A stretch of 64,000 bases of DNA from Streptomyces sp. NRRL S-350 (GTDB lineage Bacteria > Actinomycetota > Actinomycetes > Streptomycetales > Streptomycetaceae): positions 7,720 through 71,719 of the forward strand of contig NZ_JOHO01000036.1 of NCBI RefSeq assembly GCF_000719705.1. The letters run 5' to 3'. The first letter of the stretch is position 1; the number at the start of each line of letters is the position of its first letter. Of this stretch, positions 51,648 to 52,480 are shown one piece after another. The notes under the pieces were generated by a model, which was not told the origin of the DNA, searched no databases, and worked only from the letters and a program-made list of their open reading frames with translations. Position numbers and translations under genes: made by a program.

Positions 51648-52160
51648 TTGACACGGAACGTGATCACCGTCAGCGTGAGTCGGCGGGTGCTCTGGGTCGG
51701 CGGGGACGCCTACCCGCTACAACACATCGCCCGGGCGCGGCAGTTGGTCTGGTGGCCGCCCAAGCGCTCGTGGACGATCATCCGGTTCGTCCGCCAGGTG
51801 TTCGCCCTGGCCTTCGCGGCGACCGTCCTCGGCGCGCTGCTGCAGAACTCGACCGAACCGGGGCAGGCGGCGGCCGTCCCCGGCGCACTGCTGGTCGCGG
51901 GCCTCGCCTACTGCATCTACCGGCTGGTCACCCGGCTGCGGCAGCGGCCGCTGTACAAGCTGGTCATCGAGACCTCCAACGCCTCGACCACGGCCGTGGT
52001 GAGCCATGACCCCCGGCAGATCGGCCAGTTGATCGAGATGATCATGGATGCCATCGACAACCCCCAGGCCGAGTTCGCCGTCCAGGTGGAGAACGTCCAC
52101 ATCGGCGACCGGATCAACCAGTACGGCAACGACAACATCGGAAAGCAGGTGGGCCGGTGA
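51648..52160 (+). CDS. DUF6232-type membrane protein with C-terminal RHIM-like amyloid motif
   Basis: A 170-residue protein. Residues 4-36 (ITVSVSRRVLWVGGDAYPLQ) match the DUF6232 type; two membrane helices follow (about 48-64 and 77-94), then a cytoplasmic domain (PLYKLVIETSNASTTAVV; DPRQIGQLIEMIMDAIDNPQ) and a short C-terminal motif, NVHIGDRINQYGNDNIG. That motif is repeated at the N-terminus of the next protein, and the two genes overlap by GTGA. Gly/Asn/Gln motifs of this form resemble the RHIM and bacterial amyloid signalling sequences that join partners by homotypic stacking. Translation starts at TTG 51648 after AGGGGGA. Function inferred, not known. Confidence 0.75.
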   Translation: MTRNVITVSVSRRVLWVGGDAYPLQHIARARQLVWWPPKRSWTIIRFVRQVFALAFAATVLGALLQNSTEPGQAAAVPGALLVAGLAYCIYRLVTRLRQRPLYKLVIETSNASTTAVVSHDPRQIGQLIEMIMDAIDNPQAEFAVQVENVHIGDRINQYGNDNIGKQVGR

Positions 52161-52480
52161 GCGGCAACTTCCACATCGGTGACTCCGTCACCCAGCACGG
52201 CGACCACAACGTCGGCATCATCAAGCACCAGGGCCCGACCGACCCCCAGGCCGCCCTGCGCGACCTCGTGGCCGCCGTGCGCGCGTTGCGCGAGCAGGTG
52301 CCGGCCGAGGACCGCGAGGTGCTGGACGAGTCGCTGGCGGCCATCGGCGACGGCACCGCCACCCCGCCGACCGTGCTGCGGCGCGCGCTCCGGAACATCT
52401 CCGGCGTGGCCTCCCTGGTGACGGCGGGCGCCCCGGTGGTGGAGTCGATCCGCCGGATCCTGGACTCGATCACCTCCTGA
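52157..52480 (+). CDS. Small protein with N-terminal RHIM-like amyloid motif
   Basis: A 107-residue protein. Residues 3-21 (NFHIGDSVTQHGDHNVG) align with the C-terminal motif of the upstream gene at H-I-G-D-x3-Q-x-G-x2-N-x-G. The rest is helical (ALRDLVAAVRALREQVPAED, REVLDESLAAIGDGT, LRRALRNISGVASLVTAGAP) with no recognised domain. The GTG start at 52157 overlaps the upstream stop. By analogy with amyloid signalling pairs, one protein would seed the other, the helical region here being the receiver or effector. No catalytic residues are visible. Confidence 0.7.
   Translation: MSGNFHIGDSVTQHGDHNVGIIKHQGPTDPQAALRDLVAAVRALREQVPAEDREVLDESLAAIGDGTATPPTVLRRALRNISGVASLVTAGAPVVESIRRILDSITS

Follow-up and report, generated by a model that had tools for sequence, protein, structure and literature searches.

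A motif-sharing, overlapping DUF6232 and DUF5955-like gene pair in Streptomyces: a candidate NLR-free, two-component signalling module

The window analysed here, a stretch of 64,000 nucleotides from Streptomyces sp. NRRL S-350, comes from a genome assembled into 253 contigs totalling 8.78 Mb, whose nearest named protein homologues are those of Kitasatospora (part of them filed as Streptomyces). Among its genes is a pair of small forward-strand reading frames, termed A and B below. Gene A (51,648..52,160, + strand) initiates at a TTG codon and encodes a DUF6232-type protein of 170 residues, which matches the family profile (PF19744) with 76 bits and an E-value of 4e-21, above the curated cut-off of 27.4. 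The TTG start is in line with homologues that begin with MARNVIDVSVSRR; a GC3-based gene caller chose an alternative start 12 bases downstream. AlphaFold2 predicts a beta4-TM-TM-beta2-alpha core followed by a disordered C-terminal tail (pLDDT below 50 for residues 155-170), with two predicted transmembrane helices at residues 40-65 and 71-97 (51,765..51,938, + strand) that coincide with Kyte-Doolittle 19-residue maxima of 1.90 and 1.71. Because basic residues flank both sides of these helices, both ends of the protein are probably cytoplasmic.

Gene B (52,157..52,480, + strand) encodes 107 residues, modelled as a disordered N-terminus followed by a four-helix bundle at residues 30-106 (52,244..52,474, + strand; pLDDT 70-87 per block of ten), in a model of moderate overall quality (mean pLDDT 68.7). 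The protein is predicted to be a distant relative of DUF5955 (PF19380): its own profile score of 20.6 bits lies under the curated cut-off of 27.1, and Pfam matches to the family at E<=1 are found in 12 of 27 relatives of B. A Pfam scan of B returned no NTPase family. The GTG start of B at 52,157 and the TGA stop of A at 52,158-52,160 share the four nucleotides GTGA (52,157..52,160, + strand), an arrangement from which we infer that translation of the two genes is coupled.

On either side of this overlap lie two copies of a short motif, NVHIGDRINQYGNDNIG at residues 149-165 of A (52,092..52,142, + strand) and NFHIGDSVTQHGDHNVG at residues 4-20 of B (52,166..52,216, + strand), which are identical at 9 of 17 residues and whose coding DNA is alike at 39 of 51 bases. 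When the last 45 residues of a gene product are compared with the first 70 of the next by BLOSUM62 local alignment (the ‘tail/head’ score), A and B score 59, against a maximum of 33 among the 34 remaining pairs of same-strand neighbours in the window. The motif is enriched in glycine (0.21 versus 0.07) and asparagine (0.13 versus 0.02), also rich in histidine and tyrosine, and low in leucine, alanine and glutamate. Its two copies are disordered in the monomer models of both proteins. The best conserved stretch of B is not the motif but residues 81-101, and the motif is likewise not the best conserved part of A; nonetheless G15 and G20 are the sole invariant residues in an alignment of 59 homologues of B. 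Pfam assigns eight window genes around the pair to ordinary families (Tex, APH-type kinase, LysR, L-PSP/RidA-type, TetR, tyrosine phosphatase, pentapeptide-repeat and GNAT), and none of these eight is an NLR. An earlier note on this DNA had described a GTGA-overlapping pair, its upstream partner a DUF6232-type protein with two hydrophobic segments, that carries matching motifs at adjoining termini and is unaccompanied by an NLR receptor, and had likened the layout, with a C-terminal motif on a membrane protein and an N-terminal one on the next protein, to that of bacterial amyloid signalling; all of these observations are borne out.

Homology searches recovered 29 relatives of B and 54 of A that could be aligned. 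DUF6232 is patchily distributed, being present in 18 of 70 genomes of the genus, in 53 of 249 sampled genomes of the Streptomycetaceae (51 of them above the cut-off) and in 16 of 396 genomes of a phylum-wide sample (3 above the cut-off). Around the over-cut-off matches 59 stretches were retrieved and their genes called with a GC3-based script; 60 DUF6232 genes, the window locus included, were obtained from 56 of the stretches (one of which holds two genes) together with L033-L035, while L032, L092, L113 and L114 were missed at the gene-calling step and stand outside the 60. For 58 of these 60 genes the next gene, on the same strand, encodes a protein of 83-126 residues whose N-terminus matches the tail of A with a score of at least 43. 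The junction is a four-nucleotide overlap in 50 of the 58 pairs, a one-nucleotide overlap in five and an 11-nucleotide overlap in one, and the remaining two are separated by gaps of 17 and 24 nucleotides. At least one hydrophobic peak of 1.6 or more is found in all 58 of the paired A proteins, and two or more in 50. The two of the 60 genes that lack such a neighbour are those of L115 and L100, described below. By eye, L032 and L092 are pairs too.

The same linkage is evident when coordinates are compared by hand across the 249 sampled Streptomycetaceae genomes, where 56 of the 58 DUF6232 genes above the cut-off lie next to a B (a count that includes G131, in which DUF6232 adjoins two weak pieces of B) and where all 55 matches to B at E<=1e-14 adjoin a DUF6232. 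Plasmid-borne pairs occur in S. clavuligerus ATCC 27064 (plasmid pCLA1, L252; tail/head score 102) and in Streptomyces sp. Alt1 (L253; score 71), and one copy is located behind an IS1380 transposase. A protein of Streptomyces xanthophaeus (P0152) fuses the second half of DUF6232 to the body of B through a single copy of the motif, and at L179 DUF6232 was not found and B is a remnant of 57 residues. In one genome (G121), two pairs that differ in motif type lie near each other on opposite strands (L086:4966-10325), with a third pair elsewhere (L087); these offer a natural setting in which to see whether different motifs are insulated from one another.

Independent drift of the two motifs after an ancient duplication would leave a tail no nearer to its own head than to the heads of other loci. 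With one representative taken per cluster at less than 50% identity in the body of A (20 of the 58 pairs), the mean score is 68.8 for true pairs versus 37.4 for swapped ones, and none of 20,000 permutations reaches the true mean; clustering at 70% (42 representatives; 69.9 versus 45.5) and at 90% (56 representatives; 70.4 versus 44.9) gives the same direction. Several loci possess ‘private’ variants, recognized by eye, in which tail and head resemble one another: MRDFYNASGAGSVG and MRDFYHATGDGAVG at L033, YNGPVFHQNGAQNTGI and YNGPVFHQTGAQNIGI at L108, GSGSIGKAEHSGSG and GSGSIGKAEHTGSG at L090, and GGNQINQSGKAKSG and GGNQVNQSGRAKSG at L032. The covariation between neighbours that the earlier note had put forward as a check is therefore found. 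It is visible only at deep divergence, since above 50% identity in the body of A swapped pairs score no worse than true ones, and the own tail-head score exceeds every tail-tail score in only 4 of the 20 loci. Codon identity at shared residues is 0.742 for own pairs (0.691 expected) and 0.714 for non-own pairs (0.668 expected); as the excess of own pairs is no greater than that of the others, the likeness is kept at the level of protein rather than by gene conversion, and glycine, asparagine and hydrophobic positions are maintained at that level over deep divergence. Because tail and head vary together even between remote relatives, A and B are very probably joined through the motif.

The pairing has exceptions. 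The earlier note had held that homologues in which a single partner bears the motif would speak against it, and a few such proteins exist. A second DUF6232 gene in the window's own genome (L115:4992-5486, G000:C52) carries the motif VHIGDKITQYGAGNTGK with no B within reach; that genome holds one B only, and the L115 protein might associate in trans with the B of the window. At L100:3259-5393 a DUF6232 gene with a diverged, glycine-rich tail stands beside a gene for a CHAT-domain (caspase-like) protein, and in a Nonomuraea plasmid (L254:4193-5170) the end of DUF6232 is followed in one chain by a glycine-rich stretch and an unknown C-terminal domain, without a B. A Kitasatospora homologue of B (P0024) has lost the motif, and its N-terminus resembles the start of A, as if an internal deletion had spanned both genes. 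Set against these four is the adjacency of DUF6232 and B in 56 of the 58 cases of the Streptomycetaceae sample.

More distant members of both families were without the motif where they were examined. The DUF6232 genes L113 and L114 belong to another family and lack it. In the family of genome G445, taken from its neighbours to be the Micromonosporaceae, DUF6232 is present in 103 of 121 genomes; the 30 best-scoring loci yielded 27 that were usable (L059 and L197 gave the wrong gene and L212 none), and by eye none of the 27 has the motif and none has a B, with tail/head scores against the next gene of 14-38. Canonical DUF5955 exceeds its cut-off in 82 of 150 genomes. At its top 30 loci (where the gene obtained was wrong for L223 and L247 and incomplete for L244) no Gly/Asn motif was seen, and the tail/head match with the upstream neighbour never exceeded 36; two downstream whole-protein comparisons reached 46 and 49 at L232 and L240, on helical sequence.

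A related module was found among 14 loci retrieved for weaker B-like matches without DUF6232, comprising L179 (the remnant noted above), L187, L188, L191 (no upstream gene on the contig) and ten loci (L180-L186, L189, L190 and L192) at which a gene of the same orientation precedes the B-like one. This upstream gene encodes a predicted membrane protein of 562-760 residues with 2-7 hydrophobic peaks; no Pfam match was obtained for the seven of these proteins that were scanned and no PADLOC match for the six scanned. The C-terminal region of each of the ten contains a motif of a different kind, whose counterpart lies at the N-terminus of the DUF5955-like protein encoded downstream (for example GIQVNGTVNGIVQNGANTRA and GIQVNGTVNGIVQNGANARA at L190), and the B-like protein of L180 passes the DUF5955 cut-off with a score of 32.3. 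When the final 110 residues are used, scores for all ten fall at 55-106. On the last 45 residues only, L185 (30) and L192 (29) are not outstanding and L186 scores 41; these low values are attributable to a Pro/Gly-rich end that follows the motif, the score of L186, whose motif is more distant from the terminus, probably reflecting that Pro/Gly-rich sequence. Among 393 neighbour pairs not involving DUF6232, eight score above 38, all of them from this module, and the next scores 38. For these eight pairs (L185 and L192 being left aside), only one of 40,320 possible assignments, the true one, reaches the mean score of the own pairs.

Published systems provide several points of comparison. Bacterial amyloid signalling sequences (BASS) were reportedly described by Dyrka in 2020. 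In-register stacking is the mode of assembly of BASS, HET-s and RHIM motifs. Papers on filamentous actinobacteria describe BASS sets in which Bell effectors lie beside NLRs (PMC8086366, PMC12261475, PMC7889193, PMC9815663, in the excerpts available). As in those sets, a short Gly/Asn/Gln motif recurs on the products of neighbouring genes, C-terminally on the first and N-terminally on the second, here at 58 of 60 loci; unlike the Bell and NLR partners that the excerpts describe, the partners are a DUF6232 protein and a DUF5955-like protein of 107 residues. In the published layout the effector carries the motif at its C-terminus and the receptor at its N-terminus; by position, A would correspond to the former and B to the latter. 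The principle also recalls the EADs of conflict systems, homotypic adaptors common to neighbouring genes that join their components; EADs, however, are folded and mostly alpha-helical domains in the accessible portions of their descriptions (PMC7159879, PMC8195603), whereas the A/B motif is short and predicted to be disordered. With respect to their own families, A is a member of DUF6232 and B a distant relative of DUF5955, and the two differ from the canonical DUF5955 and other-family DUF6232 proteins examined in bearing the motif. No paper on DUF6232 or DUF5955 was found in the literature searched; nor, among the titles and opening lines of abstracts that topic searches returned, was there one on NLR-free bacterial pairs. 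A commentary (PMC7889193), in the part available, asks whether bacterial signalling amyloids act in NLR-independent pathways.

Taken with the foregoing, the presence of two flexible, near-identical segments that are kept alike, in company with a B that lacks an NTPase or repeat sensor, leads us to propose a membrane-anchored, NLR-free templating module. In the preferred reading (to which we assign a probability of roughly 0.58), A and B together make up a self-contained system of two components joined by a homotypic Gly/Asn-rich motif, most likely through cross-beta or beta-arch stacking, with templating of one copy by the other. A would reside in the membrane, with both its core (tentatively PH-like) and its flexible, motif-bearing tail on the cytoplasmic side. 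B, encoded in one operon with A and produced by coupled translation, would present its motif on a flexible N-terminus ahead of the four-helix bundle. The likeness of the partners, as opposed to complementarity, suggests that the motifs stack in register, most likely as a cross-beta (amyloid-like) or beta-arch assembly. Joining through the motif is well supported, and cross-beta stacking is likely. A signal that exposes or nucleates one motif would allow the other to be templated upon it, so that A would become clustered in the membrane and the bundles of B gathered there; physical contact between A and B, and the direction in which a signal would travel, are what we infer from the arrangement. 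The likeliest output would be a changed state of the membrane or envelope, because A, like the large proteins that accompany the B-like adaptor in the related module, is a predicted membrane protein.

The alternative with the most to commend it is a stoichiometric, non-amyloid complex, in which a single pairing of the two motifs, in a small beta-sheet or beta-arch, tethers B to A like any ordinary subunit, with no templating. The linkage, co-drift and fusion evidence also fits this reading, as does the ordinary character of the eight scanned genes around the pair. We nevertheless consider it unlikely, if by no means negligible, since a heterodimer interface usually calls for complementary rather than near-identical strands, and both copies follow the same private sequence even where it is unusual (L033, L108, L032). 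A nucleic-acid-level cause, whereby the motif DNA is a direct repeat kept by recombination or by an RNA function at the overlapping start, might be read from the similarity of the two coding segments in the window; it is rendered very improbable by the codon comparison, in which own pairs exceed expectation no more than others, and by the retention of glycine, asparagine and hydrophobic positions in the proteins. A toxin-antitoxin pair, with two small overlapping genes of which one encodes a membrane protein, would suit the size and overlap of the genes, their patchy presence (in about a quarter of the genus genomes), their plasmid-borne copies and the copy behind a transposase. Such an identity is hardly credible, however, as neither A nor B matches any toxin-antitoxin family, a solitary DUF6232 copy persists in the window's genome, and a shared motif is, to our knowledge, not a usual trait of toxin-antitoxin pairs.

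The earlier note had also taken the motif to be RHIM-like, and a true RHIM or BASS3-type ‘necrosome’ that causes cell death by membrane disruption was weighed accordingly. The RHIM core tetrad has the general form V/I-Q-V/I-G. The window's motifs carry NQYG (A) and TQHG (B) at this position, and a relaxed form of the core, [VIL]Q[VILC]GxxN, occurs in only one of 58 tails and in none of 58 heads. Kitasatospora-type pairs do resemble RHIM, the fungal PP motif and BASS3 in possessing Q-x-G-x-x-N with flanking glycine and asparagine, a pattern present in 14 of the 58 pairs and each time in both partners; the remaining 44 lack it, many of them showing V-x-M-x-G-G-x-G-N-x-G instead. Alignment to a BASS3 peptide gives p values of 0.32 (A) and 0.07 (B), the likeness to four published amyloid signalling peptides is weak and unspecific (a peptide published as non-aggregating reaches such scores with about the same frequency), and neither A nor B has a Bell or NLR family match in Pfam. 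For the window pair, the matches listed down to E<=10 do not include RHIM (PF12721), nor do the 23 families matched by 27 B proteins at E<=1 or the best 25 of 58 families listed for 54 A proteins, in each case with HMMER filters that may drop short motifs. The C- and N-terminal layout does resemble that of published bacterial pairs (PMC8086366, in excerpt), and the RHIM core is given as VQVG in the available part of PMC7618891. With the core tetrad failing in the window pair and in nearly all relatives, and the peptide likeness weak, RHIM membership lacks support, and a necrosome of this type is regarded as improbable.

The pair and its relatives constitute a small, genetically tractable, NLR-free candidate (two genes and 277 residues together), the naturally occurring private variants suit tests of cross-seeding specificity, and DUF6232 and DUF5955-like proteins gain a first testable role. 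The related module, with its other motifs and partners, suggests that the B-like protein is a constant adaptor while the membrane partner varies. A broader and more tentative proposal, to which we would give somewhat less than even odds, is that filamentous actinobacteria possess a general NLR-independent amyloid ‘plug’, in which a DUF5955-like adaptor is combined with differing membrane partners through a motif private to each pair; the partners would be DUF6232 proteins, the large membrane proteins without Pfam matches and, in one lineage, a part of the same fused chain. Were that so, several orthogonal membrane amyloid switches might operate in one cell. Single-chain versions are encoded at L187:2799-4259 and L188:3969-5405, in another actinobacterial family, where 478-486 residues comprise a motif-like stretch and then a B-like helical part.

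Two further observations concern the surroundings and the architecture of these proteins. At L181, L185, L186, L189 and L192 a gene adjoining the related module resembles malate dehydrogenase. A metagenomic protein (P0077) fuses an FHA domain to DUF6232 and ends in a C-terminus resembling the motif, which suggests that some versions of DUF6232 may receive a phospho-threonine input.
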